Assembly: GCF_947493565.1 (NCBI RefSeq)
Contig: NZ_CANLRG010000002.1
Coordinates: forward strand, 248,001 to 312,000
Length of the DNA: 64,000 nt
DNA from: an uncultured Lutibacter sp.
GTDB lineage: Bacteria; Bacteroidota; Bacteroidia; Flavobacteriales; Flavobacteriaceae
Direction of reading: 5' to 3'
Numbering within the stretch: position 1 is the first letter of the stretch; the number at the start of each line of letters is the position of its first letter. The position numbers and the translations under genes are program-made. Under the pieces are notes generated by a model that did not search any database, was not told where the DNA came from, and saw only the letters and a list, made by a program, of their open reading frames with translations. Shown piece after piece: positions 37,771 to 54,283 of this stretch.

Positions 37771-37837
37771 TTAACATTGAATATACAAAAGGGTAAGTTA
37801 CATTTAACTGTAAGTTAACATTGGTTTTGTTGCTTTG
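37771..37837 (+). promoter_or_regulatory. Pho-box-like promoter of the 129-residue protein gene
   Basis: TTAAC occurs at 37771, 37804 and 37815. The spacings are 33 and 11 bp, and two degenerate repeats (37782 TATAC, 37793 GTAAG) fill the grid. The last repeat begins exactly 19 bp before the TTTG (37834-37837) of a -7 element TTGCTTTG. The same layout is found before three other genes of the island. Confidence 0.55.
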
Positions 37838-37857
37838 TAGCAAATAAAAACCTAGAG

Positions 37858-38247
37858 ATGAAATCATTTTTAATTTATATAGTATTATTTTTTAGCACTT
37901 CGTTATTCAGTCAATCTTTTAATGTAAGTTCTTTAGTATCAGATGTTAATAATGAAGGAGTTATTGAAGGAGTTGTATATGACACTAATTTAACTTCCGA
38001 ACTAGCTTTTGCAAATGTGTCAATTAAAAATACAACTATTGAAGTTGAAACTGATTTTGATGGCTCTTTTTCAATAAATTTAAAACCAGGAAATTATACC
38101 TTAATTTTTAGTTTTTTAGGGTATAAAACGGTTGAAGTTGATAATGTAAAAGTAACCGCTAGTGGAGTGGTAAAATGCAATCAGGTTTTAGAAGCTTTAA
38201 AAATAGAAGCCGATATTTCATCAATTAATAATAGTTTTAAAGGTTAA
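37858..38247 (+). CDS. Secreted stand-alone CarboxypepD_reg-like domain protein
   Basis: This 129-residue protein has a signal peptide (about 1-19) and then a single carboxypeptidase regulatory-like beta-sandwich (about 33-115), with landmarks FANVSIKNTTIEVETDFDGSF and YTLIFSFLGYKTVEVDNV. The domain is strongly similar to the N-terminal domain of the TonB receptor encoded 115 bp downstream, but there is no plug or barrel. It has its own Pho-box-like promoter. It may be a free paralogue that binds the same partner as the receptor domain, which is inference. Confidence 0.8.
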   Translation: MKSFLIYIVLFFSTSLFSQSFNVSSLVSDVNNEGVIEGVVYDTNLTSELAFANVSIKNTTIEVETDFDGSFSINLKPGNYTLIFSFLGYKTVEVDNVKVTASGVVKCNQVLEALKIEADISSINNSFKG

Positions 38248-38262
38248 ATTAATCTTAATTTG

Positions 38263-38340
38263 CTAACATTAAATTAACTCTTTTATTAACTTTATATAAC
38301 AACAGTTTAACTTTTCATTTACGTAGTTGCAATTCCTTTG
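38263..38340 (+). promoter_or_regulatory. Pho-box-like promoter of the TonB receptor gene
   Basis: Six NTAAC/TTTAC repeats start at 38263, 38274, 38286, 38296, 38307 and 38318, with spacings of 11, 12, 10, 11 and 11 bp. The last lies exactly 19 bp before the TTTG (38337-38340) of a -7 element TTCCTTTG, followed by C. The receptor ATG is 23 bp further on. Confidence 0.65.
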
Positions 38341-38362
38341 CAAGAAGAAATTAATACTTAAA

Positions 38363-41182
38363 ATGAAGAAAATACTTACCGTTATATTTTTACTACTAAC
38401 TATCACTATTATAGGTCAAACAAAAGGTACAATTTCAGGTACTGTATATGATAAAGAAGTTAATAATGAACCCTTACCTTTTGCGAATGTGTTTATTAAA
38501 GGAACTTCAATAGGAACAACTACCGAATTTGAAGGAACATATACCTTTCAAGCGGAACCAGGAACTTATACCTTGGTTTTTAGTTTTATTGGTTATAAAA
38601 CAGTTGAAGTATCAAATGTAATTGTTAAATCTGGAGAAACAGTTATTATTAATCAAATACTAAGTGCAAGTGAAGGAGTTTCTTTAAGCGAAATTCAAAT
38701 TACAGCAACGGCCAATAAAGAATCGGAAAGTGCTTTATTAACTGAGCAGAAAAAAGCCGTAGCAATTGAACAAAAAATTGGAGCTCAAGAATTATCGAGA
38801 AAAGGGGTTAGTGATGTTGCAACAGCTTTAATCAAAACTACAGGGATTTCAAAACAAGAAGGATCTGGAGGTGTATTTGTAAGAGGTTTAGGTGATCGTT
38901 ATAATGTAACTACATTAAATGGATTACCATTACCATCAAATAAACCTTCAAAGAAAAATATTGATCTGGATATTTTTTCAACAGATATTGTAGAATATAT
39001 AAGCATTGATAAAACGTACAATACTAAAAATTATGGAGATTTTGCAGGCGCAAATGTAAATATTGCAACTAAAAATTATAAAGGAAATGGGTTTTTAGAA
39101 ATAGGGATAGGTACAGGAGCAAATATAGAAGTAATTTCTCAAAACAATTTTTATTTAAATGATGGTCCAAATTTTTCAGGATTTTATAACAAAAACCATC
39201 CTAAATTTCCTCTAAGTAATTACAATTTTACAACAAGTTGGAATCGAGAAAAAGTAAACAGCCCAATTAATATAAGTGCATCCTTAAAGGGAGGAGATTC
39301 TTATACATTTGGAGAGGACAGTAAAATAAGTTTTTTTACAGTAGCTAGTTTTGACAATGGCTACAAGTTTAGAGAAGGAATTTCAAAAGGAAGCACATCG
39401 CCTTATGGACTTACAGCCAAAGAGTTTGATTTTACTAGTTATGAGTACAATACCAACTCTACTGTAATGGGTAACATTGCATTCAGCAATCAAGGAACCA
39501 CTTTAAAATATAACACTTTGTTTATCAATACTTCAAGTCAAAAGCAACAAGAGTATGATGGGATAATTGATGTGTTTGATTATGCTTCTAATGGAGGTGG
39601 ATTGATTCAACGAAGTACTTTTGAAAAAACAGCACTTTTTGTAAATCAGCTTTTAGGAAATCATAAAATAAAAGAACGATTTGAAGCTGATTGGGGAATT
39701 TCTTACAATACCGTTAAAAATGATGTTCCAAATAGAAGGCAAACAACACTATCACCAGATAACCCAAATGAACCAGAAGGTCCAAAATCTTTTAAAAACG
39801 TATTAAGTACCTCAGATAATCATAGGTTTTATCATGAATTGACTGAAGATGAACTTGCAGCAAATATTTCAGGAACATATAAGTTTGATGAAAACGAAGA
39901 AGAAGAATTTAATGGAAAAGTAACTGTTGGTTATAGTGGAAAAATTAAAAACATAAATTTTGAAGCTATACAATTCAACTTTGATATTTTAATTAATAAC
40001 AATGGCACTCCAATTAACCAACCAACTATAGAAGATGTATATAATCTTGATGCCTATTTTAATCAAGAAAATTTTAATGCAGGATTATTTAAAATAAATA
40101 CTTTTAGAGGAGGTGCAAATGTTCCAATTGCTTTAGATCCTCAAACCTATGAAGGAAACCAAGACATCCACGCAGCTTTTGTTTCTTTTGAATATTCATT
40201 TTCTCCAAAATTAATTGTAGTTGCTGGTGTAAGAGCAGAGGAAATAACACAATTTATTAAATGGAGTACAGCGCTAGACCCTGAAGGTGGGGAAAGTGAA
40301 TTTAATACTACAGAAATTCTTCCAATGTTATCGTTAAAATATAAATTAAATGATAAACAGAATTTAAAATTTGCAGCAAGTAAAACATATACGCTACCTC
40401 AATTTAAAGAAAGAGCACCCTTTTTATACGATGAAATAACACAAACATCATTTGGAAATCCAACGCTATATGCTTCTAAAGATTATAATGCAGATTTTAA
40501 GTGGGAGCTGTTTCCAAAATCTAATGAAATTATTTCTTTAGGTGCTTTTGGAAAATACATACAAGATCCTATCAATGAGTTTACTGTAAATTCAGCATCT
40601 AATGATGTAAGTTATGTTAATTCAGGAGATTATGCAGTTGCTTATGGAGCGGAACTAGAGTATCGAAAAGGTGTTTTTGAAAGTGAAATTGAAAAAGGAG
40701 ATGATTTTTTAAAAAGCACGTTATCTATTGGTTTTAATGCTTCCTATATGAATACCAATCAAAAACTTGATGATGAAAAAGTTTTAAAAGAAACTACCGA
40801 AGCAGGATTTCCTTTAAGTACTTTTTTTACAAATGATGAAGATAAATTAACAGGCGCATCAGATCTTTTACTAAATGCAGATATTAGTTTTTTTAAAGAA
40901 TACGCTGCAGATAAAAATTTATTATCAACACTTACATTCAATTATTTTTCAGACAGAGTTTATGCTTTGGGTACTCAAGGAAAAGGAAATTTAGTTGAGA
41001 AAGGAGTTGGTTCTTTAGATTTTATTACAAAATACCAAATGAATAAAAATTTAACAATTGGTATTACGGCTAAAAATATTTTAAACCCAACAATTAAAAG
41101 GTTTCAAGAAACACAAGATGTAACAGTTTCATCTTATAAAGCAGGGATAAGTACTAAATTATCAATATCCTATAACTTTTAA
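38363..41182 (+). CDS. TonB-dependent outer-membrane receptor
   Basis: This 939-residue receptor has a signal peptide ending near IIGQ, a CarboxypepD_reg-like domain (about 20-110), a plug with GGVFVRGLGDRYNVTTLNG and DLDIFSTDIVEYISIDKT (about 150-240), and a C-terminal beta-barrel ending in an aromatic residue (ISYNF). The start is ATG 38363; an in-frame TTG at 38327 lies within the promoter and is rejected. The ligand is unknown. Its position in a Pho-box-controlled island beside pstSCAB suggests a phosphorus-containing substrate. Confidence 0.9.
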   Translation: MKKILTVIFLLLTITIIGQTKGTISGTVYDKEVNNEPLPFANVFIKGTSIGTTTEFEGTYTFQAEPGTYTLVFSFIGYKTVEVSNVIVKSGETVIINQILSASEGVSLSEIQITATANKESESALLTEQKKAVAIEQKIGAQELSRKGVSDVATALIKTTGISKQEGSGGVFVRGLGDRYNVTTLNGLPLPSNKPSKKNIDLDIFSTDIVEYISIDKTYNTKNYGDFAGANVNIATKNYKGNGFLEIGIGTGANIEVISQNNFYLNDGPNFSGFYNKNHPKFPLSNYNFTTSWNREKVNSPINISASLKGGDSYTFGEDSKISFFTVASFDNGYKFREGISKGSTSPYGLTAKEFDFTSYEYNTNSTVMGNIAFSNQGTTLKYNTLFINTSSQKQQEYDGIIDVFDYASNGGGLIQRSTFEKTALFVNQLLGNHKIKERFEADWGISYNTVKNDVPNRRQTTLSPDNPNEPEGPKSFKNVLSTSDNHRFYHELTEDELAANISGTYKFDENEEEEFNGKVTVGYSGKIKNINFEAIQFNFDILINNNGTPINQPTIEDVYNLDAYFNQENFNAGLFKINTFRGGANVPIALDPQTYEGNQDIHAAFVSFEYSFSPKLIVVAGVRAEEITQFIKWSTALDPEGGESEFNTTEILPMLSLKYKLNDKQNLKFAASKTYTLPQFKERAPFLYDEITQTSFGNPTLYASKDYNADFKWELFPKSNEIISLGAFGKYIQDPINEFTVNSASNDVSYVNSGDYAVAYGAELEYRKGVFESEIEKGDDFLKSTLSIGFNASYMNTNQKLDDEKVLKETTEAGFPLSTFFTNDEDKLTGASDLLLNADISFFKEYAADKNLLSTLTFNYFSDRVYALGTQGKGNLVEKGVGSLDFITKYQMNKNLTIGITAKNILNPTIKRFQETQDVTVSSYKAGISTKLSISYNF

Positions 41183-41249
41183 TTTACATTAAATTAATCC
41201 AAAAATAAATTTTAAACAATACCTAAATTATACGAGTGCAATTAATTTG
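41172..41249 (+). promoter_or_regulatory. Weak Pho-box-like repeats before the beta-helix lipoprotein gene
   Basis: ATAAC (41172), TTTAC (41183) and TTAAT (41194) are spaced by 11 bp. More degenerate steps on the same grid lead to ATTAT at 41227, which is 19 bp before a TTTG (41246-41249). The first repeat overlaps the receptor stop region. The match is much weaker than for the other promoters and may reflect AT richness. Confidence 0.3.
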
Positions 41250-41271
41250 TAAAATAAATAAATAAAACAAA

Positions 41272-43497
41272 ATGAAAAAACAACTTTTAACTTTAATGAT
41301 AATGATAGCCGCAATGGCTGTTGTAATTTCTTGTGGCAATGATGATGATGAAAGTACATTAGCAACTTGTTCAGATGGAATTCAAAATGGAGATGAAACA
41401 GGAATTGACTGTGGTGGATCTTCTTGTCAACCTTGTGAGGTAAACACGACTTTAGAAGGTGAAATTACAGGAACTGTTAATTTAGATCCAAATTTAGAAT
41501 ATCAACTTACAGCGGCCTATGTTGTTCTTGATGGTGCTACACTTAACATCCCTGCAGGAACTGTAATTAAAGCTACAGGTGGTACTGCAGCTTATATTGC
41601 TGTTGCTCAAGGAGGTAAAATTAATATTCAAGGAACTTCTGACAATCCTGTTATTATGACTTCAGGTGAGGCTTCTCCTGCACCTGCTGATTGGGGAGGA
41701 TTGGTTGTTTGTGGAAAAGCACCTACTAATAAAGGAGCTTCTGTAACTTCAGAAGTAGCAGGCCTAACTTATGGAGGAACAGAAAATAATGATAACTCAG
41801 GGTCAATCAGATACTTAAGAATTGAATACACAGGAGCTGAGTTTTCTGCAGATAAACAATTTAATGGATTGTCTTTATTTGGAGTTGGTTCAGGAACGAC
41901 CGTTGAATATGTACAATCTTACAATGGAAAAGACGATGGTATCGAATTTTTTGGAGGTACAGTAAACGGTAGATATTTAATTTCTACAAATGCAGGTGAT
42001 GATGGTATTGACTTTGCAGATGGATGGAATGGAAATGGTGAATATTGGTATGTTTCAGGTTCAGCCAAAGCAGGTTTAGAAGGATCAAACCTTAAAGATG
42101 AAACAGCATCCGTTAACCCTATAACAACTACTACAATTAGTAACGTTACAGTGGTTGGTCCAGTAACTGAAGGAGCACTTTACTATAAAGAAGGTGGTGG
42201 AAAATTTACAATTGATAATTTTTATACTTCAGCTGTTGATTTAGGGATTAAAGTTAAAAGTACTGATATTCCTGCTGTAACAAGAATTGAAGCAGGCGAT
42301 TTAACAATAACAAATATGCAATTTGCTGAAGCTGTTTCTGGGTTAGTTAAAACAGATTATACAGGTGCAAATCAAACTTTTTACACAGAAGGAATTGCTA
42401 CTGGTGCTGGTAATGGAGCAGCGGCTCCAGATTGGGCTGCAGGTTGGACAAAAGGTCTTACTAATAGTGCGGCAACTACTGAAAATCTTCAAGGTAAAAT
42501 TTCAAATGAAGTATCGTTAAAATCAGAGGTAACTTATTTATTAACTAGTTCGTTGGAAATTGAAAATGGTGGAAAATTAACAATCCCAGCGGGAACTGTA
42601 ATTAAAGCTACAGGTGGTACTGCTGCTTATATTGCTGTTGCTCAAGGTGGTCAAATTTTTGTAGAAGGAACTTCTGACAATCCTGTTATTATGACTTCAG
42701 GAGAAACTTCTCCTGCACCTGCTGATTGGGGAGGATTGGTTGTTTGTGGAAAAGCACCTACTAATAAAGGAGCTTCTGTAACTTCAGAAGTAGCAGGCCT
42801 AACTTATGGAGGTACAGTTATTGATGATAACTCAGGGTCAATCAAATATTTAAGATTAGAATATACAGGAGCTGAGTTTTCTGCAGATAAACAATTTAAT
42901 GGATTGTCTTTATTTGGAGTTGGTTCAGGAACGACCGTTGAATATGTACAATCTTATAATGGAAAAGACGATGGTATCGAATTTTTTGGAGGTACAGTAA
43001 ACGGTAGATATTTAATTTCTACAAATGCAGGTGATGATGGTATTGATTTTGCAGATGGATGGAATGGAAATGGTGAATATTGGTATGTTTCAGGTTCAGC
43101 CAAAGCAGGTTTAGAAGGATCAAACCTTAAAGATGAAACAGCATCTGTTAACCCTATAACAACTACTACAATTAGTAATGTTACAGTGGTTGGTCCAGTA
43201 ACTGAAGGAGCACTTTACTATAAAGAAGGTGGTGGAAAATTTACAATTGATAATTTTTATACAACAGGTATTGATTTAGGTATTAAAGTTAAGAGTAGTG
43301 ATGCTCCTGCAGTATCTAGGATTGAAGCAGGTGATTTAACAATTACAAATATACAATTTGATAGTCCAGCTACAGACTTTGTAGCAACAGATCATACAGG
43401 TGCAAATCAAACTTTTTACACAGAAGGTACTGCAACTGGTGCTGGTAATGGAGCAGCGGCTCCAGACTGGGCTACAGGATGGGCAAGATTTAATTAA
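41272..43497 (+). CDS. Surface lipoprotein with duplicated beta-helix-like module
   Basis: This 741-residue lipoprotein has the lipobox VVISC (Cys21) and an acidic NDDDE tract. Next come a six-Cys linker (CSDGIQNGDETGIDCGG, about 34-60) and two tandem modules of about 300 residues, near 93-393 and 438-738. Each module has IPAGTVIKATGGTAAYIAV, ADWGGLVVCGKAPTN and GDDGIDFADGWNGNGEYW, a pattern suggesting a parallel beta-helix. It follows the TonB receptor gene by 89 bp and may act as its surface partner, in the manner of SusD-type lipoproteins though unrelated to SusD. The binding target is unknown. Confidence 0.75.
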   Translation: MKKQLLTLMIMIAAMAVVISCGNDDDESTLATCSDGIQNGDETGIDCGGSSCQPCEVNTTLEGEITGTVNLDPNLEYQLTAAYVVLDGATLNIPAGTVIKATGGTAAYIAVAQGGKINIQGTSDNPVIMTSGEASPAPADWGGLVVCGKAPTNKGASVTSEVAGLTYGGTENNDNSGSIRYLRIEYTGAEFSADKQFNGLSLFGVGSGTTVEYVQSYNGKDDGIEFFGGTVNGRYLISTNAGDDGIDFADGWNGNGEYWYVSGSAKAGLEGSNLKDETASVNPITTTTISNVTVVGPVTEGALYYKEGGGKFTIDNFYTSAVDLGIKVKSTDIPAVTRIEAGDLTITNMQFAEAVSGLVKTDYTGANQTFYTEGIATGAGNGAAAPDWAAGWTKGLTNSAATTENLQGKISNEVSLKSEVTYLLTSSLEIENGGKLTIPAGTVIKATGGTAAYIAVAQGGQIFVEGTSDNPVIMTSGETSPAPADWGGLVVCGKAPTNKGASVTSEVAGLTYGGTVIDDNSGSIKYLRLEYTGAEFSADKQFNGLSLFGVGSGTTVEYVQSYNGKDDGIEFFGGTVNGRYLISTNAGDDGIDFADGWNGNGEYWYVSGSAKAGLEGSNLKDETASVNPITTTTISNVTVVGPVTEGALYYKEGGGKFTIDNFYTTGIDLGIKVKSSDAPAVSRIEAGDLTITNIQFDSPATDFVATDHTGANQTFYTEGTATGAGNGAAAPDWATGWARFN
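41547..43485 (+). repeat. Intragenic tandem duplication, offset 1035 bp
   Basis: Bases about 41547-42450 recur at 42582-43485 with a constant offset of 1035 bp and no visible indels. Large stretches, including the region encoding the NGRYLISTNAG segment, are identical or nearly so at the nucleotide level, including synonymous positions. This points to recent duplication or gene conversion. Confidence 0.85.
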
Positions 43498-43518
43498 GAA
43501 AGTAATCTTTTACGTATA

Positions 43519-43554
43519 AAAAAAGGAGCTATTTTAAAAACAGCTCCTTTTTTC
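43519..43554. terminator. Bidirectional terminator after the lipoprotein gene
   Basis: A 12-bp stem (43519-43530 with 43542-43553) has A and T tracts on either side. It lies between convergent genes and can end both. Confidence 0.75.
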
Positions 43555-43578
43555 TTTTAAAGAAATTTAATTTTAGGA

Positions 43579-43926
43579 CTAATTAATAACGAGTGCTTTT
43601 TCTTCAACATTAGTTATTTTATTGTGGTTGTAAGTTACAACACTTATTTTATCTTCTTTAAAGTAGGTCCAAACACCTTCTTTAACTCCATTATTGTAAT
43701 TTGCAATAACCTTTTTATTTCCTTGCAAATCGTAGCTAATCCATGTTCCATGTAATTTTTCAGCAGCATTAAAATAACCTTCTCGTTCTACCAAATTATT
43801 GTTTTCAGAAAAGTAATAGGTAGCTTTTACTAAATTGTTAGCTACTTTTTTATATTCAACTTTTTGTTCTTGAGAAAAAGCAGTAAACCCAACTAATAAT
43901 ACCAATGTGTATATAAATGTTTTCAT
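43579..43926 (-). CDS. Small secreted YwqK/MORN-like protein
   Basis: This 115-residue protein has a signal peptide (about 1-18, ending AFSQ) and short strand-turn repeats such as REGYFNAAEKLHGTWISYD and VIANYNNGVKEGVWTYFKED. These resemble MORN/YwqK-type repeats, here as two or three units. The function is unknown and the exported location is likely. It is divergent from the porin gene across a 494-bp gap that carries a phased repeat array. Confidence 0.75.
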   Translation of the reverse strand: MKTFIYTLVLLVGFTAFSQEQKVEYKKVANNLVKATYYFSENNNLVEREGYFNAAEKLHGTWISYDLQGNKKVIANYNNGVKEGVWTYFKEDKISVVTYNHNKITNVEEKALVIN

Positions 43927-43982
43927 AATCTATTTTAATTTTCAGTTAATGTAAAATTTAATTCTACACTAAAAATAAAAAA

Positions 43983-44026
43983 TTTACACATAATTTACGT
44001 TTAGTTAACATTAAGTTTACATTAAA
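43983..44026. promoter_or_regulatory. Perfect 11-bp phased TTTAC/TTAAC array
   Basis: TTTAC at 43983, TTTAC at 43994, TTAAC at 44005 and TTTAC at 44016 are spaced by exactly 11 bp, the most regular array in the window. It matches the repeats found before the phosphate genes. It lies 57 bp upstream of the minus-strand gene ending at 43926 and 395 bp before the porin start. No TTTG lies 19 bp after the last repeat on the plus strand, so its target gene is unresolved. Confidence 0.5.
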
Positions 44027-44068
44027 TTTTTTCAAATGAAACATAATCACTTGAAAAACAGTAATTTG

Positions 44069-44331
44069 ACGAATTGTTAATTACGACTTAAAAATTTGCA
44101 TATTAATGAAATGATACTTTGTAAATAGGATGATGACTAATAAATGACCTTTAACTTTTTAAAAAATATTAATGTTTAAATAATGTTTTGGTTACATAAA
44201 TTAGAGTTTATTTAATGATTTTTGTGAGTGTTATTTAAATAAGAAATAAAAATCATTTCATATTAATTTGTTAGTTTTTGTCGACTCAATTATTGAAATG
44301 TATAGGCTGCTTTTAAAAAGTGGCCTTTTTT
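44069..44331 (+). ncRNA. Candidate small RNA upstream of the porin gene
   Basis: The candidate is defined by an orphan plus-strand terminator at its 3' end and TTTG-containing -7-like sequences upstream (for example GTAATTTG at 44061-44068). The phased Pho-like array precedes it. The 5' end is a guess, and a start nearer 44127 is equally possible. No conserved secondary structure or known RNA family was recognised. This is inference from signals alone. Confidence 0.2.
44304..44331 (+). terminator. Orphan intrinsic terminator
   Basis: A stem pairs 44305-44313 with 44317-44325, including two G-T wobbles, and closes on a TAA loop. Six T residues (44326-44331) follow. The nearest upstream plus-strand protein gene ends at 43497 and already has its own terminator at 43519-43554. 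It therefore has no obvious coding transcript to terminate. Confidence 0.6.
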
Positions 44332-44354
44332 GGTTACCAAAAAGTAGTGTAAAA

Positions 44355-44399
44355 ATAACAACTTGATAACGTTAATTTAACAAATGTATTGGTTCTTTG
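44355..44399 (+). promoter_or_regulatory. Pho-box-like promoter of the OprO/P porin gene
   Basis: ATAAC at 44355, ATAAC at 44366 and TTAAC at 44377 are spaced by exactly 11 bp. The last begins 19 bp before the TTTG (44396-44399) of the -7 element GTTCTTTG, followed by C. The porin ATG lies 21 bp downstream. Confidence 0.65.
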
Positions 44400-44420
44400 C
44401 AGTGACAAAAACTAATAATT

Positions 44421-45623
44421 ATGAAATTAAAGAATGTTCTTTTGGTAGCATTATTTTTTAGCTACTTTTTTATGAATTCTCAAGAGAATCCTTTCTCTAC
44501 TAAATGGGATAATGGATTTAAAATCGAGAATGCTGATAAAAGCATTAAAATGAAATTTGGAGGTCGTTTAATGTACGATTTTGGTTTTTTCTCATTAAAT
44601 AATAAGGCTGAGACCAATGGGTACACACTAGCTTCTGAAAACGGAAATGAATTTCGTAGAGCACGTTTATTTACTTCAGGAACGATTTATAAAAATATTG
44701 ACTTTAAACTTCAAGTAGATTTTACAGGTGGTGAAGTTACTTTAAAAGATGCCTATATAACCTTAAAAAAATTGCCTGCTGTTGGAAACTTACGAGTTGG
44801 GCATTTTAAAGAACCTTATAGATTAGAAGCGCTTACTAGTAGTAAGTACATTACATTTATGGAAAGAGCGTTACCAATTTCAATGATTCCTGAAAGAAAT
44901 TCTGGATTTATGCTTTTTAATGAAAGTGCTAATAAAAGAATGTCCTGGCAAATAGGCTTGTTTAGAGGTGCTGATAAAGCAACTTCAGACAGTCCTGAAG
45001 CAAATGGTGATTATGCCATAACATCTAGAATAGCAGGTGCCGTGTTGAATAAAGAAAATTCATTACTTCATTTAGGTCTTTCATACAGTTATAGAAAACC
45101 ACAAGAAAACCATTCTTTTGGTTATTCAGTAAGACCAGAAGTTCACATCTCAAATAAATATATCCAAACAAATGTAAGTGGTGTTGATAATGTACATCTT
45201 TTCAATTTTGAAACAGCTTGGGTGGCTAATTCATTTTCATTACAAGGAGAATACTCAGCAGCCAATGTAAATTCATCTTTAAACGATGAAAACTTTACCA
45301 GTTATTATCTACAAGCTAGTTATTTTTTAACAGGAGAAAAAAGAGTGTATAAAAATTCTATGGATGGATTTGACCGTGTAAAACCTGCATCAAATTTTGG
45401 AGAAAATGGAATAGGTGCTTTAGAAGTTGCATTACGATATTCTGGAATTGATGGGATGAATAATGATAAGATGGGCAATATTACTGCTGGTTTAAATTGG
45501 CATTTAAATCCTGCAACACGAATTATGGCCAATTATGTGATTTCTAATATAGAAAATAATACTCAATACCATGGAGATGGACAATTTAACGCTTTTCAAA
45601 TGCGTTTTCAAATAGATTTTTAA
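44421..45623 (+). CDS. Phosphate-selective porin OprO/OprP-like
   Basis: This 400-residue outer-membrane beta-barrel has a signal peptide (about 1-20). The porin O/P family pattern begins at FKIENADKSIKMKFGGRLMYDFGFF and continues through RRARLFTSGTIYKNIDFKLQVDF and LRVGHFKEPYRLE, and the protein ends in a C-terminal Phe (RFQIDF). In Pseudomonas, OprP and OprO take up phosphate and pyrophosphate. Here the gene precedes pstSCAB and has a Pho-box-like promoter, which supports a phosphate role. The ligand is inferred from family and context. Confidence 0.9.
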   Translation: MKLKNVLLVALFFSYFFMNSQENPFSTKWDNGFKIENADKSIKMKFGGRLMYDFGFFSLNNKAETNGYTLASENGNEFRRARLFTSGTIYKNIDFKLQVDFTGGEVTLKDAYITLKKLPAVGNLRVGHFKEPYRLEALTSSKYITFMERALPISMIPERNSGFMLFNESANKRMSWQIGLFRGADKATSDSPEANGDYAITSRIAGAVLNKENSLLHLGLSYSYRKPQENHSFGYSVRPEVHISNKYIQTNVSGVDNVHLFNFETAWVANSFSLQGEYSAANVNSSLNDENFTSYYLQASYFLTGEKRVYKNSMDGFDRVKPASNFGENGIGALEVALRYSGIDGMNNDKMGNITAGLNWHLNPATRIMANYVISNIENNTQYHGDGQFNAFQMRFQIDF

Positions 45624-45696: not shown

Positions 45697-45730
45697 TTAA
45701 CTAAAAATTAACGTTCAGTGCATTTATTTG
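45697..45730 (+). promoter_or_regulatory. Pho-box-like promoter of pstS
   Basis: TTAAC at 45697 and at 45708 are 11 bp apart. The second begins exactly 19 bp before the TTTG (45727-45730) of the -7 element TTTATTTG, followed by C. The pstS ATG is 23 bp downstream. Confidence 0.65.
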
Positions 45731-45753: not shown

Positions 45754-46710
45754 ATGAAAAAATTAGTATTTATTTTATCACTAGCATTTATAGTAGGTGC
45801 TTGTGGAGACAAAAAATCACAAAAAGAAAACAAAGAAGAAACTACAGGAAAACTTTCAGGAACTATTAAAGTTGATGGTTCAAGTACTGTGTTTCCTATT
45901 ACTGAAGCTGTAGCCGAAGAATTTAGAGCAGTTCAACCAGATGTTAAAGTAACGGTAGGTGTTTCAGGAACAGGGGGAGGTTTTAAAAAATTCTCAAGAG
46001 GGGAAACTAACCTATCAAATGCTTCTCGCCCAATTAAAGAAAAAGAAATTGCTGCCTGTAAAGAAAATAACATCAATTACTTAGAATTAGAAGTTGCTTA
46101 TGATGGCTTAGCAGTATTAGTAAACCCAGAAAATGATTGGGTAGATAGTTTTACTATTGAAGAACTAAAGAAAATATGGGAACCTGCCGCTCAGGGTGTA
46201 ATTATGAAATGGAATCAAATTAGACCAGAATGGCCTAATGAAGAAATTCATTTATTTGGTCCTGGAGTTGCTTCTGGTACCTACGATTATTTTACGGAAG
46301 CTATTGTTGGTAAAAGTGGTTCAAGTAGAGGTGACTTTACAGCTAGTGAAGATGATCATGTATTGGTTCAAGGTATTGCAGGAGATAAATTTGCCTTAGG
46401 ATTTTTTGGATTGGCATATTACACTGAGAACAAAGATAAATTAACATTGATAGGTGTTCATAATGGAGAAGAAGTGATTAAACCAACATTAGAAACCGTA
46501 AGTAACGGAACTTATAAACCACTATCTAGACCTTTATTTGTATATGTAAATAGTACTTCTGTAAAATCGAAAGAGGTAGTAGAGTTTGTTAATTTTTACA
46601 TTGATAACTCAGGTGAATTATCTAAAGATGTAGGATACATTCCTTTACCTTCTGAACTATACGTACAACAAAAAGAAAATTTTAAAAATTTTGTTGAAAA
46701 CAACCAATAA
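45754..46710 (+). CDS. pstS: Phosphate-binding lipoprotein PstS
   Basis: This 318-residue solute-binding protein for the high-affinity phosphate ABC transporter has a lipobox (VGACGDKK). Phosphate-contact motifs are visible: [40 protein letters not shown] and the [14 protein letters not shown] segment. It is the first gene of pstS-pstC-pstA-pstB-phoU, behind a Pho-box-like promoter. A hairpin separates it from pstC, which may let it be expressed above the permease genes. Confidence 0.96.
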
Positions 46711-46755: not shown

Positions 46756-46780
46756 TCACATTCTTTAAATTATCTTTTTA

Positions 46781-47659
46781 ATGCGAAAAATTAGAGAACT
46801 AGTAATAGAAAAATCACTTTTAGGAAGTGCTTTAATTACTATTGCAGTTACTGTAGGTATCATTTCAGTTCTTGCAATTGAAGCAGTTCGTTTTTTTAAA
46901 GAAGTCTCTTTATTTGATTTTTTTACGGATACCCAATGGACTCCTTTATTTACAGATAAACATTACGGAATTTTACCATTACTTTCAGGAACATTTTTAA
47001 CATCTTTAATTGCTATTTCTGTTGCGTTACCTATTGGGTTATCAATAAGTATTTATTTAAGTGAATATGCTCCTAAAAGTTTCAGAAAAACAATCAAACC
47101 TTTATTAGAGCTTTTAGCAGCTATTCCAACAGTTGTTTATGGTTTTTTTGCTTTAATAGTAGTAACTCCATTTTTACAACAATTTATTCCAAACCTATCT
47201 GGGTTTAACTCACTTTCTGCAGGTGTTGTTATGGGAATTATGATAATTCCATTTGTATCTTCCATTAGTGAAGATGCTTTACATGCAGTTCCAAGAGCAT
47301 TAAGAGAAGCTTCTTATGGAATGGGGGCAACTAAATTGCAAACAGCTTTTAAAGTAGTGGTTCCAGCTGCTTCATCAGGAATTATAGTTTCTATAATTTT
47401 AGCTATTTCTAGAGCCATAGGAGAAACCATGATTGTTGCGGTAGCCGCAGGTCAGCAACCTCGTTTAACATTAGATCCTACTGTTCCAGTTGAAACTATA
47501 ACCGCTTATATTGTTCAGGTTAGTTTAGGTGATGTTGAACATGGTTCCATAGAGTATAGGACCATATTTGCTGCAGGTATTACCTTGTTTGTGTTTACGT
47601 TTTTGTTAAACACGTTGAGTTACAGAATCAGAAAAAAATACCAAGAAAAGTATGAATAG
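46781..47659 (+). CDS. pstC: Phosphate ABC transporter permease PstC
   Basis: This 292-residue inner-membrane permease has six membrane helices. It carries the MetI-type cytoplasmic loop with EASYGMGATKLQTAFKVVVPAASSGI (EAA motif) and the RAIGETMIVAVAAGQQP segment of phosphate permeases. It overlaps pstA by 8 bp, as expected for coupled subunits. Length is normal. Confidence 0.96.
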   Translation: MRKIRELVIEKSLLGSALITIAVTVGIISVLAIEAVRFFKEVSLFDFFTDTQWTPLFTDKHYGILPLLSGTFLTSLIAISVALPIGLSISIYLSEYAPKSFRKTIKPLLELLAAIPTVVYGFFALIVVTPFLQQFIPNLSGFNSLSAGVVMGIMIIPFVSSISEDALHAVPRALREASYGMGATKLQTAFKVVVPAASSGIIVSIILAISRAIGETMIVAVAAGQQPRLTLDPTVPVETITAYIVQVSLGDVEHGSIEYRTIFAAGITLFVFTFLLNTLSYRIRKKYQEKYE

Positions 47660-48506
47660 TATTCAAAAAAATAGATTGAAAGATCAACTGTTCAAAATCT
47701 GGGGAATAGTTTGTACACTTATAGGATTGGTGTTATTGATTATTTTTATTGGAGATATTTTTATTGATGGGATAAGTAGAATTGATTGGGAGTTTATAAC
47801 TGACTTGCCATCTAGAAAAGCTGAAAAATCTGGTATATATACAGCCCTAATGGGAAGCATTTGGATTTTAATTTTAACAACAATCATTTCTTTTCCAATT
47901 GGAGTTGCAGCAGGTGTTTATTTAGAAGAATATAGTAAAAAGAATAGGCTTTCAGCTTTGTTAGAAATTAATATTTCAAATTTAGCAGGTGTACCATCCA
48001 TTATTTATGGATTATTAGGACTCGAATTATTTGCTAGAATTATGAATTTAGGAGCCAGTGTTTTAACAGGAAGTTTAACACTGTCTTTATTAATTTTGCC
48101 AATTATAATTGTAGCAACTAGAGAAGCTATAAAATCAGTTCCAAACTCTATTAGAGACGCTTCATTTGCTTTAGGAGCTTCCAAATGGCAAACTATTTGG
48201 CATCAAATATTACCTGCTTCTGGAGGAGGTATTTTAACAGGTGTTATTTTAGCACTTTCAAGAGCAGTTGGTGAAACAGCACCATTAATAGTTATTGGAG
48301 CTTTGGCTTATGTGCCTTTTGCACCTTCTACACCAATGGATGAATTTTCGGTATTGCCTATCCAAATATTTAATTGGATTTCAAGACCACAACATGGATT
48401 TATTGAAAATGCAGCAGCAGCAATTATTATATTATTACTTATTACATTTGTAATGAATGGTATCGCTGTTTATTTTAGAAATAGATGGCAAAAGAAATGG
48501 AAATAA
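47652..48506 (+). CDS. pstA: Phosphate ABC transporter permease PstA
   Basis: This 284-residue permease has six membrane helices, the EAA loop ([27 protein letters not shown]) and the [14 protein letters not shown] motif specific to PstA. It overlaps pstC by 8 bp at its start. Its stop codon overlaps the likely pstB start in a TAATG arrangement. Confidence 0.96.
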
Positions 48507-49321
48507 TGGAAAAAATTAAAGAGAAAAAAGAAGTGAAGAATATAGTTGATAATAATCAATCTAAATCTTTACAAAAAATTGATATAAAAAATGTAAAAGT
48601 TTGGTACGATGATTTTAATGCCATTAAAGGTATTGATATGAACATAAAACCAAACAGTGTAACGGCTTTTATTGGTCCTTCAGGTTGTGGAAAATCTACG
48701 TTTTTGCGATTGTTTAATAGAATGAATGATTATGTTGATGGCTTTAAAATGGAAGGTAAAATTAAAATAGATGGTAAAAATATATACAAGAAGAAGGTGA
48801 ATGTTGAAGAACTTCGTAAAGAAATTGGAATGGTGTTTCAAAAACCAAACCCATTTCCTAAATCTATTTTCGAAAATGTAGCCTATGGTTTAAAAATCCA
48901 AGGAATAAAAGATAAAAAATTCATAGAAGCAAGAGTTGAAAAGGCTTTAAAGCAAGCAGATTTATGGGACGAAGTAAAAGATAACTTAAAAAAATCTGCC
49001 TTAGCTTTATCAGGAGGTCAACAACAGCGTTTATGTATTGCTAGAACCTTAGCAGTAGAGCCATCTATAATTTTAATGGATGAACCAACTTCAGCCCTAG
49101 ACCCCATATCAACAGCTAAAATTGAAGATCTTATCTTTGAGCTAAAAGAAAAATATACAATTATTATTGTAACTCATAACATGCAACAAGCTAGTAGAAT
49201 AAGTGATTATACGGCTTTTTTCTACCTTGGAGAATTAATTGAATACAATAAAACAAAAACAATTTTTACAAATCCAGAAAAAAAACAAACAGAGAATTAT
49301 ATTACTGGACGTTTTGGATAA
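48506..49321 (+). CDS. pstB: Phosphate ABC transporter ATPase PstB
   Basis: This 271-residue ATPase has Walker [10 protein letters not shown], signature LSGGQQQR and Walker [14 protein letters not shown], plus the [16 protein letters not shown] start typical of PstB. The start is taken as the ATG at 48506 because it overlaps the pstA stop (TAATG). An in-frame ATG at 48485 would add seven residues and cannot be excluded. It energises PstSCA and, with PhoU, normally reports phosphate status to PhoR. Confidence 0.95.
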
Positions 49322-49333
49322 AAAATATACATT

Positions 49334-49999
49334 ATGGTTATAAATGCTGAACAACAAAGAGCCTCTTTAAATCAAACAGGGCTTGAAATGCTTAATTTGT
49401 GTACTTCACAATTGGAAAAAGCCACAGAAGCTTTAAAGAATCACGACAGTGATTTAGCCGAAGAAGTTATGAATGGCGAAACTCGTGTAAATGCACTTGA
49501 TTTAAAAATTGAACGTGATTGTGAAAAATTTTTAGCACTTTACAATCCTGTTGCAATAGATTTGCGTTTTATCATGGCTATTAGAAAAATTAACCTAGAC
49601 CTAGAAAGAATGGGAGATATAGCTTATGAGATTTCTAATTATGTGGTTGATGAAGATAAAAAAATACCTGCAAGTTTGTTTAAGGCGTTAAGTTTTGATA
49701 AAATGTACGAAACCTTAACTTCAATGCTTGAAGATATTACTGTTGCATATGAAGAAAACGATGTTAAAATTTCAAGAAAAGTTTTTAAAAAAGGAAAAGC
49801 ATTAAATAAAATAAATGCCAAAGCATTTGATATTTTAGAGGCAGAAATTAAAAAGGATAATGAAATTATTAAACAAGCATTATTATTATTTGTTGTTGTA
49901 AAAAAATTAGAACGTGTTGGTGGTTTAATAAAAAATATTGCTGAAGAAATTATTTTTTATATTGATGCTGAAGTGTTAAAACACAAAAAGAAAAAGTAA
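49334..49999 (+). CDS. phoU: Phosphate signalling protein PhoU
   Basis: This 221-residue all-helical protein has two PhoU repeats. The metal-binding motif is visible in the first (DLRFIMAIRKINLDLERMGDIAYEI), while the second (VKKLERVGGLIKNIAEEIIFYI) is slightly degenerate. PhoU represses the Pho response by acting on PstB and the PhoR kinase. It lies 12 bp after pstB. No phoB or phoR gene is present in the window. Confidence 0.95.
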   Translation: MVINAEQQRASLNQTGLEMLNLCTSQLEKATEALKNHDSDLAEEVMNGETRVNALDLKIERDCEKFLALYNPVAIDLRFIMAIRKINLDLERMGDIAYEISNYVVDEDKKIPASLFKALSFDKMYETLTSMLEDITVAYEENDVKISRKVFKKGKALNKINAKAFDILEAEIKKDNEIIKQALLLFVVVKKLERVGGLIKNIAEEIIFYIDAEVLKHKKKK

Positions 50000-50020
50000 T
50001 AAGAATGTTATTTTATACGC

Positions 50021-50050
50021 AAAAAAGAGTGCTTTAAGCACTCTTTTTTT
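50021..50050. terminator. Bidirectional terminator after phoU
   Basis: A perfect 12-bp stem (50021-50032 with 50038-50049) has an A-tract and a T-tract. The stop codon of the convergent Na/Pi gene lies in its loop. Confidence 0.85.
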
Positions 50051-51815
50051 GTGCCTCATTACCATTGTTTTCAAAAATTGAATGTTTTTCATTATACAAT
50101 AATTCAGCAACTTCAATAAGCTTTTTAATCATTTCGTTAACATTGGCATAGTCGTTAAAAAGTGAAGATGCCATTTCAGACGTAATTAAATTTTTTCTAA
50201 TTAACCTATCAATGGATTTATTATTTTGTTTTATATTTTCTTTGGCTTGTTTTTTTAATTCAATTAATTTTTCTGCGTATTTCAAGGTTTTATCTTCAGT
50301 TCTAAACAAATAAATAATTCGTAAAACTTTAATTACTTTTTTTCTAAAACCATCATATTCTTTTAATAAGTACTTATTGTCTAAATTTAATGATTTGGTG
50401 ACGTTTTTATTTAACTCTCTAACTTCTTTAATAATTTCAACCATTTTTCGGTTAGCAATTTTTATGTTGGTAATTGTAGAATTTTGTTTTTTATTTAAAT
50501 GAAGTGTGTTTTGTGCAGTTGAAGCATATCTTATAATTTCTCCATAAATACTTTTTACTTTTTTATAGTACAATTCTTCAACATCAATTTGCATATCAGT
50601 TGTAGATTTTTTAACAATACTTTTAATTTTTTTATCAGAAATGATATCTTCTCTATGAATGTTTAATGCATGAGCTACAATTTCAAAAATGGCATTTTTA
50701 TACAAATGTTTGGTTTCATTTATTAGTGAGGATATGACTGTTCCTGGAAATTTTAAAACGGCTTCATTTAAGTATTTAGGTTCATCTGTACCTTTAATTT
50801 TTTCTTTAAAAATTCGTAATAAAAGAGTTTCAATAGATTTAATAAAAGGAATCATTAAAATAACACCTAAAATATTAAATATAGTATGAAATAAAGCCAG
50901 TTTTAAGGTATAATCACTATATTTTATTCCAAAAATTTCAGCTAAATAATTAACTAAACTTGCTAGTGGAAAAATAAATATAAGAGCAATTATACCTGTT
51001 ACAATGTTAAAAATTAAGTGAGCACCTGCCAATCTTTTACCAGAAACATTAGAGCTTATGGCTCCTAAAATAGCTGTTACTGTGGTGCCTATATTAGCGC
51101 CAATAGTTATGGCTAATGCATTTTCATAGGTTATTTGTCCAGCAGCTAAAGCTGTTAATACCAACACCAAGGAGGCAGCACTTGATTGTAGTAAAACCGT
51201 TATAATAATACCGATTGCTGTATATAATAAAACTCCTAAATATCCTGAAACGGCATATTGAGTTAAATCTATGTATTTGCTAAATACTTCAAATCCTTCT
51301 TTCATAAAATAGATACCTAAGAAAAAGAATCCTAAACCTGCTAATACATTACCAATACCTTTAAATACTTCATTTTTTTGAATAGAAAATATAATTCCAA
51401 ATACTAACATTGGCATTGCTAAAGCTGATATTTTTATTTTTAAACCAAAACCAGCAACTAACCATGCGGTTGCAGTACTACCAATATTTGCTCCAAATAT
51501 TAGACCTAAACCACCTGTTAAACTAATGAGTCCTGCACTAATGAATGAAATGGTAATTACGGAAACTAAAGAGCTAGATTGTAATAATGCTGTAACCAAA
51601 GCACCAACAGAAATACTTTTGTAAAGTTTATTTGTTGCTTTTTTTAATAGATTTTGAAGTGGTCCTTTAGTGAAAACTCTAAAACCTTCTTCTAACATTA
51701 TCATACCAAAAAGGAGTATGGCAATACCTGCAGAAATAGTTTTAAAATTTGGATTAAGTACTAATACCACAGCTAAAACAACTAAAAAAACAATAAATAG
51801 AAGCCTCCTAAACAT
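50034..51815 (-). CDS. Na/Pi cotransporter with C-terminal PhoU-like domain
   Basis: This 593-residue protein has an NptA-type membrane half. It contains two inverted QSSS-bearing repeats: VTALLQSSSLVSVITISFISAG near 57-78 and ITVLLQSSAASLVLVLTALAAG near 205-226. A cytoplasmic helical half (about 345-580) resembles PhoU. It would import phosphate with sodium, with built-in regulation. The start is ATG 51815; the in-frame TTG at 51827 is less likely. It lies downstream of the pit-like gene and convergent with phoU, so it belongs to the phosphate island. Confidence 0.9.
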   Translation of the reverse strand: MFRRLLFIVFLVVLAVVLVLNPNFKTISAGIAILLFGMIMLEEGFRVFTKGPLQNLLKKATNKLYKSISVGALVTALLQSSSLVSVITISFISAGLISLTGGLGLIFGANIGSTATAWLVAGFGLKIKISALAMPMLVFGIIFSIQKNEVFKGIGNVLAGLGFFFLGIYFMKEGFEVFSKYIDLTQYAVSGYLGVLLYTAIGIIITVLLQSSAASLVLVLTALAAGQITYENALAITIGANIGTTVTAILGAISSNVSGKRLAGAHLIFNIVTGIIALIFIFPLASLVNYLAEIFGIKYSDYTLKLALFHTIFNILGVILMIPFIKSIETLLLRIFKEKIKGTDEPKYLNEAVLKFPGTVISSLINETKHLYKNAIFEIVAHALNIHREDIISDKKIKSIVKKSTTDMQIDVEELYYKKVKSIYGEIIRYASTAQNTLHLNKKQNSTITNIKIANRKMVEIIKEVRELNKNVTKSLNLDNKYLLKEYDGFRKKVIKVLRIIYLFRTEDKTLKYAEKLIELKKQAKENIKQNNKSIDRLIRKNLITSEMASSLFNDYANVNEMIKKLIEVAELLYNEKHSIFENNGNEAQKKSA

Positions 51816-51854
51816 AAGTAAATACAAAAATTAAAAAGTAAATATAGCTAAAAT

Positions 51855-51886
51855 AAAAAAGGCCTTCAATTAAATTTGAAGACCCT
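51855..51886 (-). terminator. Terminator between the pit-like and Na/Pi genes
   Basis: A 9-bp stem with one mismatch (51861-51869 with 51876-51884) precedes a T-tract on the minus strand. It probably ends most transcripts from the pit-like gene. Confidence 0.6.
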
Positions 51887-51907
51887 TTAAAGTATGTTTA
51901 ACTAGTA

Positions 51908-54163
51908 TTACTTGTTTCTTTCTTCCATAATATGAAATTCTTGATATAGTTGTAATAAGCTCATTAAAGCTGATATTAAATCTTTAGTTTCAAGAAGAAT
52001 ACCAAAATATAAAGTACTGTTTTTAGGACTTGTTTCATCGGTTCTAATTCTTGAAATTTGTTTGTCAATAGATTCAGATACATGATTGAAAATATCTTGT
52101 TTTGCATCTATAATTTGTGCCAAATTGTGGAATGTATTTTCACTAAAATCTTTTTCAATTTGATTGAATAAAACTTTCAATTCTTCGTTAATAGCTTTTA
52201 AATCATTTATTTGAGGTTTCTTTAAATGTTTGTGTTGGTTATTAACGTGTTTATAACTTGTAGTGGATATGTATTCGATAGATTGTGTAATATCTTGTAA
52301 ATACCCTAAAACTAACAAATAGAACCTACTTGCTTTAACCGATGTATCATCAAGTGATTTAATAAAGTAGAAAACATCTTCTTTTAACTCATTAACTTCT
52401 TTATTTAGTTTTTTTACGTGTTTTTCAGTTTTAGAAAGCTTGTTTAAATCGTGAGTTGATAAATCGTTGACAACATTAGTAAACAGTTTATTTACTCTTC
52501 TAACTACTTCTGAAATATGATCTGTACTTTCATTTATAACTTCATTAATTGTAATCAACTCTGCACGCTCCATATATCTTTTAGCTTTCTTTTCCTTAGC
52601 TTTTCTAGTGTGTCTAATTGAACTGCGTCCAATTAAGAACAATACAATTATTAATAAAATTGATACTGATACTATTTCTCCAAGATAGATAATATATGCA
52701 AAAACTGCAGCAACGGTAAAAGCTGATAATGCAGTTAAAAACCAACCTCCAATCACATTAAATACACCAGCAACTCTGTAAACTGCGCTTTCTCTTCCCC
52801 AAGCTCTGTCTGCTAAAGAAGTACCCATAGCTACCATAAATGTAACATAGGTAGTAGATAAAGGTAATTTTAAGGAAGTACCGATAGAGATTAAAATACC
52901 TGCAACAAATAAATTTACTGAAGCTCTAACCATATCAAAAGCAGGCAACTCATATGATTTATCTTTTGGGAGTTCAATTACTGGTTTTTGAAATTTTGAA
53001 TCTACCCAATCTAAAGTTTTTTGAGGAAAAATTTTATTGATTCCTTGACTAAATAAAATAGCTCCTCTTACAACTGTTCTTGAAACTACATTTGCTTGAA
53101 ACTTTTCGTGCCCATCACCTTGTCTAGATAAGTTGATGCCTGTTTCAATAACTGATTTTGCTTTTTTTGAAAACCAAAGGGTAATCACCATAATCATTCC
53201 AGCTAGAAAAAGTAATGTTGGGTTTGAAGGTACTTTTTTAGCAAGTACACCCATAGAAAATTCATTAGCGGCGATACCAGATGCATCCCATTCTTGATAT
53301 GAATTCCAAGCAGCAATAGGAACACCAATAAAGTTTACTAAATCGTTTCCGGCAAAGGCCATGGCCAATGAAAATGTACCAATTATTACAATAAATTTTA
53401 GAATATTTACTTTAAATAGAGAAATTAATAGCTGTGATAAAATGGTCCAAAAAATAAATCCATAAATAATAATTTGATAGGTTCTACCTTCAATTAAGTG
53501 TTTAACATCATCGTAAAAAGGAGTTCCTTTTAATCCTTTTACAAAAATAAAATAGGTAATGGCAGTGATAGCAAAACCTCCAAATAGAGCATTTACATAA
53601 CTTTGTCTTTTATCAAATTGGAATGAATATAATAAACGCGACAAGAACTGTACAATAGCACCAACTGTAAAGGCTATAAAAACAGAAAGTAAAATTCCAG
53701 AGATAATAAGCAATGCTTTTTCAGAATTGATGTATTTACCTACATTTACTAATGTTTCTGCATCATTATTAGAAATTTTTATTAATGCCATAGCCACAGC
53801 TGCTCCTAATAATTCAAAAACTATAGATACTGTAGTTGATGTTGGCATTCCTAAGGAATTAAACACATCTAATAGCAAAATGTCTGTTATCATAACTGCC
53901 ATAAAAATGAACATAATTTCATTAAAATAGAATTCTGAAGGATTGAAAATCCCTTTTCTTGCAACTTCCATCATACCACTTGAAGTAATAGCTCCAAGTG
54001 CCACACCTATACTGGCAATTATTAAAATAGCTTTTATTGAAACGGCTTTTGAGCCAATTGCAGAGTTTAAAAAGTTAACGGCATCGTTGCTAACTCCTAC
54101 TACCAAATCAATTATTGCTAATACTGTAAGTGCAACAAGCATTAAAATGTAAATATCTCCCAT
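51908..54163 (-). CDS. Pit-type inorganic phosphate transporter with C-terminal regulatory domain
   Basis: This is a 751-residue transporter. Both PiT signature motifs are present: VGVSNDAVNFLNSAIGSKAVS near 22-42 and AGNDLVNFIGVPIAAW in the second half of the membrane domain. The membrane part covers about residues 1-515. The remaining 230 residues form a soluble helical domain resembling PhoU/DUF47, absent from short bacterial Pit proteins. It has its own Pho-box-like promoter. With PstSCAB and the Na/Pi protein it gives the cell three phosphate uptake routes within 9 kb. Confidence 0.9.
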   Translation of the reverse strand: MGDIYILMLVALTVLAIIDLVVGVSNDAVNFLNSAIGSKAVSIKAILIIASIGVALGAITSSGMMEVARKGIFNPSEFYFNEIMFIFMAVMITDILLLDVFNSLGMPTSTTVSIVFELLGAAVAMALIKISNNDAETLVNVGKYINSEKALLIISGILLSVFIAFTVGAIVQFLSRLLYSFQFDKRQSYVNALFGGFAITAITYFIFVKGLKGTPFYDDVKHLIEGRTYQIIIYGFIFWTILSQLLISLFKVNILKFIVIIGTFSLAMAFAGNDLVNFIGVPIAAWNSYQEWDASGIAANEFSMGVLAKKVPSNPTLLFLAGMIMVITLWFSKKAKSVIETGINLSRQGDGHEKFQANVVSRTVVRGAILFSQGINKIFPQKTLDWVDSKFQKPVIELPKDKSYELPAFDMVRASVNLFVAGILISIGTSLKLPLSTTYVTFMVAMGTSLADRAWGRESAVYRVAGVFNVIGGWFLTALSAFTVAAVFAYIIYLGEIVSVSILLIIVLFLIGRSSIRHTRKAKEKKAKRYMERAELITINEVINESTDHISEVVRRVNKLFTNVVNDLSTHDLNKLSKTEKHVKKLNKEVNELKEDVFYFIKSLDDTSVKASRFYLLVLGYLQDITQSIEYISTTSYKHVNNQHKHLKKPQINDLKAINEELKVLFNQIEKDFSENTFHNLAQIIDAKQDIFNHVSESIDKQISRIRTDETSPKNSTLYFGILLETKDLISALMSLLQLYQEFHIMEERNK

Positions 54164-54183
54164 TTTTTATTTTTTTAATTTTG

Positions 54184-54283
54184 CAAAATTACTTTCAAAT
54201 ATGTTAGTGTATATTAATTTAATGTTACCAACTTTAAATTAATGTTAAATTAATGTTACGTAATCATATTTTTATGATTGTTA
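54184..54283 (-). promoter_or_regulatory. Pho-box-like promoter of the pit-like gene
   Basis: On the minus strand an exact -7 element TAATTTTG lies at 54191-54184. TAAC sites lie at 54206-54203, 54227-54224, 54247-54244, 54258-54255 and 54283-54280. Successive spacings are 21, 20, 11 and 25 bp, mostly multiples of about 10.5. The nearest repeat is 20 bp from the TTTG, one base more than in the other phosphate promoters. Confidence 0.55.

Follow-up and report, generated by a model that had tools for sequence, protein, structure and literature searches.

The stretch analysed here (hereafter the window) comprises 64,000 nucleotides of an uncultured Lutibacter sp. (contig NZ_CANLRG010000002.1, positions 248,001 to 312,000; coordinates below count from its first letter), and in it several genes for phosphate uptake are preceded by TTAAC-like repeats that recur every 11 base pairs (bp) and end at a fixed distance from a TTTG. 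What are these arrays? We consider it very probable that they are Pho boxes, that is, predicted operators of the PhoB orthologue of this genome, tied to the -7 element of Bacteroidota promoters. This is the best reading in view of the 11-bp period, the fixed -7 register, the fact that in relatives the arrays are specific to phosphate genes, and the repeats before phoB. The repeats, their register, their conservation, their gene specificity and the inverted repeats before phoB are direct observations, described below.

In the following, T.AC denotes the scanned core of the repeat, and a distance counted from the 5-mer TTAAC or TTTAC is 1 bp longer. Both direct reading and a script placed the last T.AC 18 bp (19 bp from the 5-mer) before the TTTG in all four of boxes A to D (Table 1), as the first-pass annotation had stated for the gene of a 129-amino-acid (aa) protein, the TonB receptor gene, the porin gene and pstS. 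Its two to six repeats at about 11-bp steps were also recovered (two, six, three and two), the steps in box B being 11, 12, 10, 11 and 11 bp, and the TTTG lies 24, 26, 25 and 27 bp from the ATG in boxes A, B, C and D in turn. The exact pattern T.AC-N7-T.AC-N14-TTTG has four matches in the window, which are precisely these four promoters, and the mean in 40 dinucleotide shuffles of the window was 0.33, with a maximum of 2. When the spacings were loosened by one base, the excess vanished (6 matches against a shuffle mean of 3.05 and a maximum of 7, which is not striking), indicating that the exactness matters. A single repeat 19 bp from TTTG was at chance level, with 6 matches in the window and 6.3 expected. 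An array of four repeats (box F), overlooked by the first-pass annotation, precedes the gene of a 115-aa protein.

The spacing was then compared among 80 loci around PstS relatives, most of them labelled Bacteroidota and ten labelled otherwise. One of the 80 (L076) is labelled as a metagenome-assembled genome of Bordetella parapertussis, and this label looks doubtful. In the 200 bp upstream of pstS, T.AC pairs 11 bp apart were present in 43 of the 80 loci, compared with 5.0 in shuffles, and the peak was one base wide (10 bp in 3 and 12 bp in 1 of the 80). The distance from T.AC to TTTG was 18 bp in 23 loci (shuffles, 2.0) and 29 bp in 34 (shuffles, 1.5). Pairs at 11 bp were likewise found before the TonB receptor (10/13), porin (4/8) and pit (9/21) genes; the query with the 129-aa protein gave 9/10, and because most of its matches were at the beginning of the receptor gene, these counts are not independent of those of the receptor. 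In five further genes used for comparison (n = 169), there was no excess at 11 bp (12 vs 9.2), 18 bp (2 vs 4.7) or 29 bp (2 vs 4.5), and peaks without explanation occurred elsewhere, namely for T.AC pairs spaced by 7 bp (22 vs 8.6) and for a T.AC-to-TTTG distance of 11 bp (34 vs 5.0). The conservation in related promoters, proposed earlier as a check, was thus borne out. In a motif table whose 77 rows represent 69 distinct sites, including 4 of the window, TAA[CT] at -40, TAAC at -29 and a looser TAAC at -18 are followed by TTTG[CT]A, with no conserved TTG between the repeats. The array therefore stands in a fixed register over the -35/-33 region, exactly 18 and 29 bp from T.AC to the TTTG of the presumed -7 element.

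Next, the genes that carry the register were examined. For the open reading frame (ORF, at least 250 aa) that ends just before pstS in 23 loci, two of them labelled non-Bacteroidota, the upstream region contained T.AC 18 bp from TTTG in 14 loci (0.5 in shuffles) and 29 bp from it in 12 (0.3). When upstream regions of other ORFs of at least 150 aa were scanned in 70 loci, the ten labelled as other phyla being omitted, a forward box was found in 23 of 532, and by Pfam these 23 ORFs comprised 15 Porin_O_P, 2 PHO4, 1 general beta-barrel and 5 without a family at 1e-5. The forward box was present before pstS in 26/80, porin in 5/8, the TonB receptor in 8/13, pit in 8/21 and the lipoprotein in 1/14, and before pstC, phoU and Na/Pi genes in 0/76, 0/61 and 0/6, respectively. 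All of these loci are phosphate neighbourhoods, and the specificity is therefore measured within them, not across genomes.

Repeats that are AT-rich, helically phased and close upstream of a promoter might also bend DNA or act in the manner of an UP element, with no specific regulator. Such a role seems very unlikely to us, considering that the spacing is exactly 11 bp, that polarity varies by gene class and that the C at -26 is 85% conserved (among sites picked by the motif itself). Moreover, the repeats are kept before pstS in some regions of 46-59% G+C content (G038, G118). These regions belong to a phylum-wide sample of 40 pstS genes, hand-picked out of 119 matching genomes with some genera repeated, in which T.AC pairs at 11 bp preceded the gene in 19 (shuffles, 2.7). 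From this occurrence across the phylum, partly at such base composition, the predicted operator repeat is probably old within Bacteroidota.

To score sites in the genome, a sequence-only model (R1) was built on 36 boxes of relatives and no sequence of the genome itself. From 55 candidate boxes, 42 were taken into alignment A1 and 36 into alignment A2, near-duplicates and weak ones being removed by eye. A1 was discarded because five pit boxes were displaced by one repeat, and A2 is without these five and one near-duplicate porin box, so that R1 contains loci of the same genus (none of the own genome) and only one pit box. In the window, the six best matches of R1 were the six boxes. Across the 3.1-Mb genome, where 150 of 6966 first-look candidates were scored, the porin box was the top match (32.1 bits, E 3.6e-7), followed by the pstS box (26.3 bits) and box F (position 43991, 19.5 bits), and the boxes of the 129-aa gene (18.8 bits) and the TonB receptor gene (14.7 bits) ranked fifth and ninth. 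The best match of a reversed control model (R2) reached 16.7 bits, below four of the five ranked window sites. All sites of the genome that scored above the control are in the window cluster, apart from two (18.9 and 17.8 bits) that we took as chance, the former, rank 4, being within a reading frame. Taken as chance among sites of at least 16 bits were C11:94118 and C3:189536, inside reading frames of the opposite strand; C6:183459, which matches model positions 2-41 only and precedes a gene that reads as aspartyl-protease-like; and C4:176015, antisense and immediately ahead of a 220-aa ORF. The site at C5:309253 has the pattern but is directed at a convergent gene. Two good-looking candidate arrays were noted on minus strands: three TAAC at 11 bp with a fourth nearby at C5:159537-159562 (L291:2038-2063), flanked by a gene that reads as dapF-like and a DegP/HtrA-like protease gene, and three inverted repeats at C4:52061-52086 (L290:2062-2087) before a gene that reads as ankyrin-like.

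In genomes of relatives, which partly coincide with the training loci of R1 so that their matches are not independent, R1 had a match in 17 of 25. A homologue of a window gene lies downstream of 33 of the 60 matches, and the other 27 include 11 before porin-like genes (by reading), 5 inverted arrays at the 115-aa gene, 4 at phoB and 7 without an assignment. A domain protein of the 129-aa type was the downstream gene in 13 of the 60.

The genome has four Trans_reg_C matches. One is the candidate phoB orthologue, outside the window at C2:147481-148176, followed by a PhoR-like kinase gene, for which the best NCBI families are PnpS/PhoR, below cut-off. Relatives of the regulator or kinase occur near pstS in 9 of the 80 loci (the regulator, 53-60% identical, in eight and the kinase in six). 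The phoB orthologue is present exactly once in each of 26 genomes of the genus; of 60 genomes sampled across the family, 57 have it. Two of the four Trans_reg_C proteins are RprY-like, and one (L082) is without a receiver domain and has a membrane-bound look by reading. The arrays might be sites for a different regulator of the OmpR family, such as one of the two RprY-like proteins, in which case their proximity to phosphate genes would reflect a wider envelope response; in excerpts of the report on Riemerella anatipestifer PhoP, too, the motif of that regulator is said to resemble the ArcA motif (PMC9603813). We regard this as improbable, given the boxes before phosphate genes of relatives and the inverted repeats found before phoB in 44 of 55 genera, to which we now turn.

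The repeats upstream of phoB read GT.A and are thus inverted. In the genus, where one of the 26 loci was left out as its upstream sequence was lacking, inverted repeats were 11 bp apart in 23 of 25 genomes and 22 bp apart in 22. In the 55 other genera, the corresponding numbers were 44 and 25 (shuffles, 3.8 and 3.5), and three strictly consecutive inverted repeats were present in 20/25 and 19/55, respectively. GT.A pairs at 16 and 19 bp also exceeded chance (19 and 17 of 55). In 11 of 28 loci, the gene divergent from phoB encodes a TonB receptor or is FII-like, and there the forward register of 18, 29 and 40 bp before TTTG faces the divergent gene in 7, 8 and 5. At 14 loci, in 13 of which the divergent gene reads as a homologue of a PolB-type exonuclease, the forward register was found in 0/14 at each distance, and all 14 keep the inverted 11-bp pair, mostly about 80-110 bp before the phoB ATG. 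Because the pair is kept where no divergent phosphate gene register exists, the inverted array can most likely be assigned to phoB. An excess at 17 and 28 bp (4/14 loci) was discounted, as it falls within the divergent gene and not near the array. The sequence TATCTTTA, upstream of phoB in 33 of 55 genera and most commonly 53, 56 or 64 bp from the pair, may be the phoB -7 element. The 115-aa gene resembles phoB in that inverted repeats spaced by 11 and 22 bp occur in 17/17 of its homologues, and three strictly consecutive ones in 4/12.

These opposite polarities could mean that Bacteroidota PhoB reads the orientation of its site, forward arrays over the -33 region switching import genes on and inverted ones tuning or holding back phoB and the 115-aa gene. 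We offer this tentatively and think it rather doubtful; phoB of Flavobacterium johnsoniae rises on phosphate depletion, which speaks against simple repression by the inverted array. If true, the phosphate response would have a built-in brake.

Several results weigh against PhoB operators as the explanation. The scan of the whole genome for the plain pattern, suggested by the first-pass annotation, turned out not to be specific by itself: two exact repeats with TTTG had 12 matches and 15 backwards, and three repeats had 18 and 24. Since the pattern is no commoner than its backwards control, it does not define sites alone, and we rejected it as a stand-alone test. Similarly, R1 and R2 each had 23 matches with E below 1, so that below 16.7 bits R1 is no better than its control; box B (14.6-14.7 bits) is below that value. 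The box of the pit-like gene was described earlier as having 20 bp, and this distance was found (from the 5-mer), one base off the register; its score was 11.9 bits in the window scan and it was not among the matches listed for the genome scan. The TonB receptor and pit boxes thus rest on conservation and repeat number, not on score. No array was found upstream of a PhoD-like gene elsewhere in the genome, 7 of 9 genomes of the same order had no R1 match at E 0.01, and forward repeats at 11 bp also precede phoB in 10/55 genera (2.5 expected). The regulator at C2:147481 has PhoB models as its closest, below the NCBI cut-offs (209 vs 296.2 and 208.5 vs 270). In excerpts of published work, F. johnsoniae OprP was not induced by phosphate depletion (log2 -1.3, P 0.25; PMC8115612), and the main text on Riemerella PhoP, with its 583 peaks, has no word starting with pst (PMC9603813).

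The plain-pattern counts would suit an origin of the arrays by chance in an AT-rich genome. We give this hardly any credence, because the sites cluster at the phosphate locus (a stretch of 8 kb, a length picked post hoc, holds 4 of the 12 genome matches of the exact pattern, for which the control rate gives a Poisson P of about 9e-8), R1 ranks four of the six boxes above the R2 control, and relatives conserve them with exact 11- and 18-bp peaks. As to the phosphate regulon claimed for this organism, the above-control sites lie in the phosphate cluster, apart from the two taken as chance, and the PhoD-like gene elsewhere has no box.

In Bacillus subtilis, the PhoP box TT(A/C/T)ACA has a near-identical half-site and the same period, and functions at sigma-A promoters. 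The Escherichia coli PhoB box likewise consists of direct 11-nucleotide units at phosphate promoters (PMC4415409, in excerpt as are the papers below), and differs in its half-site, CTGTCAT, and sigma-70 -10 element; CTGTCAT is absent from our motif table, where the half-site is TTAAC(A). In cyanobacteria, the SphR box is made of CTTAACCT repeats with 3-bp linkers (PMC1906773), and it shares with the present arrays the TTAAC half-site, the 11-bp period, the direct repeats and the position before pst and other phosphate genes. This fit indicates that CTGTCAT defines the E. coli subtype and not the whole kind, and suggests that, on sequence grounds, the half-site is common to cyanobacteria and Bacteroidota. 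Unlike the SphR box, the present repeats lie 18, 29 and 40 bp before the Bacteroidota -7 TTTG, phoB has an inverted array, and the gene set includes a TonB receptor, a small domain protein and a porin.

Within the phylum, DNA affinity purification sequencing of Riemerella PhoP gave the motif TTTAACA, and one site was located between -156 and -121 upstream of its own phoPR operon (PMC9603813). Phylum, half-site and self-operon site are alike, and neither an 11-bp register nor a distance to -7 is given in the excerpt. In Bacteroides fragilis, normal expression of pstC requires PhoB, which binds a 512-bp fragment of the pst promoter, a similar link to pst, with no mapped site in the excerpt (PMC3547664). 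In F. johnsoniae, phosphate depletion raised a TonB receptor, lipoprotein FII and PhoB of one cluster by log2 +8.0, +9.9 and +3.1 (PMC8115612; genes matched to those of the window by domains and order). For marine isolates, putative Pho boxes, likewise predicted PhoB sites before phosphate-stress genes, were reported before plcP, which Bacteroidetes hold (PMC4796936). The first-pass idea of a PhoB-type operator stands as the best reading; the recognition sequence differs from that of E. coli, the half-site itself is known from SphR and Riemerella, and the Pho box is a known kind of site. A mapped Bacteroidota Pho box was not found in the portion of the open-access PMC literature searched, and the same holds for the fixed coupling to the -7 element of the phylum, for this gene set and for the inverted arrays.

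Taken as PhoB operators, the arrays suggest the following mechanism. The half-site TTAAC(A) is repeated from 18, 29 and often 40 bp before the presumed -7 TTTG, and an array in these positions covers the place of a would-be -33 element. When phosphate is limiting, PhoB in its phosphorylated form would occupy the array head to tail, with one subunit on each 11-bp repeat, and could hold RNA polymerase at promoters that are without a -33 element. The predicted outcome is activation of a set of phosphate importers in both membranes, outer and inner (TonB receptor, small domain protein, porin, Pst and Pit), and PhoB may also control phoB itself and the 115-aa gene by way of the oppositely oriented arrays. 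This would provide a searchable, nucleotide-level definition of a phosphate operator in a phylum with its own promoter type, with opposite-polarity arrays conserved at the gene of the regulator itself. It would connect phosphate scavenging with a TonB receptor whose cargo is unknown, and the phosphate regulons of uncultured relatives could be predicted from sequence.

Table 1. Predicted operator arrays and genes of the window (positions of T.AC cores; R1 scores in bits)
Feature	Position	Strand	Description
Box A	37805..37837	+	T.AC 37805, 37816 (11 bp); TTTG 37834-37837; precedes 129-aa gene; R1 18.8
Box B	38264..38340	+	six T.AC: 38264, 38275, 38287, 38297, 38308, 38319; TTTG 38337-38340; precedes TonB receptor gene
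Box C	44356..44399	+	T.AC 44356, 44367, 44378 (11, 11 bp); TTTG 44396-44399; precedes porin gene
Box D	45698..45730	+	T.AC 45698, 45709 (11 bp); TTTG 45727-45730; precedes pstS; R1 26.3, E 2.4e-5
Box E	54184..54258	-	starts 54258, 54247, 54236 (TAAA), 54227, 54206; TTTG 54187-54184; precedes pit-like gene
Box F	43984..44020	+	four repeats, spaced 11 bp; precedes 115-aa gene, to which it is inverted; R1 19.5-21
129-aa protein	37858..38247	+	mainly one carboxypeptidase-D regulatory-like domain; Pfam PF13715, E 1.9e-17
TonB-dependent receptor	38363..41182	+	PF00593, PF07715, PF13715
741-aa lipoprotein (by reading)	41272..43497	+	positional counterpart of F. johnsoniae FII
115-aa protein, weakly MORN-like	43579..43926	-	PF07661, E 0.021, 15.4 bits, below cut-off 29.6
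Porin, phosphate-selective porin O/P family	44421..45623	+	PF07396, E 2.3e-47
pstS	45754..46710	+	TIGR02136, 313.9 bits, cut-off 206.6; binding-protein domain by Pfam
Two permease genes, ABC ATPase gene, phoU	46781..49999	+	downstream of pstS; PhoU PF01895, E 1.1e-31
Na+/Pi cotransporter gene	50034..51827	-	PF02690, E 2.9e-45
Pit-like phosphate transporter (PHO4/Pit)	51908..54163	-	PF01384, E 9.2e-30, 104.2 bits, cut-off 33.7

Some gene assignments in Table 1 are by reading. The start of the TonB receptor was read as the ATG at 38363, where the ORF program gives TTG at 38327; permeases and ABC ATPase were named from their ORFs, and PhoU by Pfam. The name FII for the 741-aa lipoprotein rests on position and on its description in the excerpt of PMC8115612; the protein had no Pfam match at 1e-3, and its translation consists of two near-identical halves in tandem. 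No box was present in the stretch read upstream of the Na+/Pi cotransporter gene. In the 129-aa protein, the carboxypeptidase-D regulatory-like domain is free-standing, and the adjoining TonB receptor has such a domain N-terminally. In four loci of relatives (L007, L008, L011 and L014), inverted three-repeat arrays lie upstream of a dgt-like gene, which reads like a dGTPase; the window counterpart of that gene (36360-37694, with an HD domain) is divergent from the gene of the 129-aa protein.

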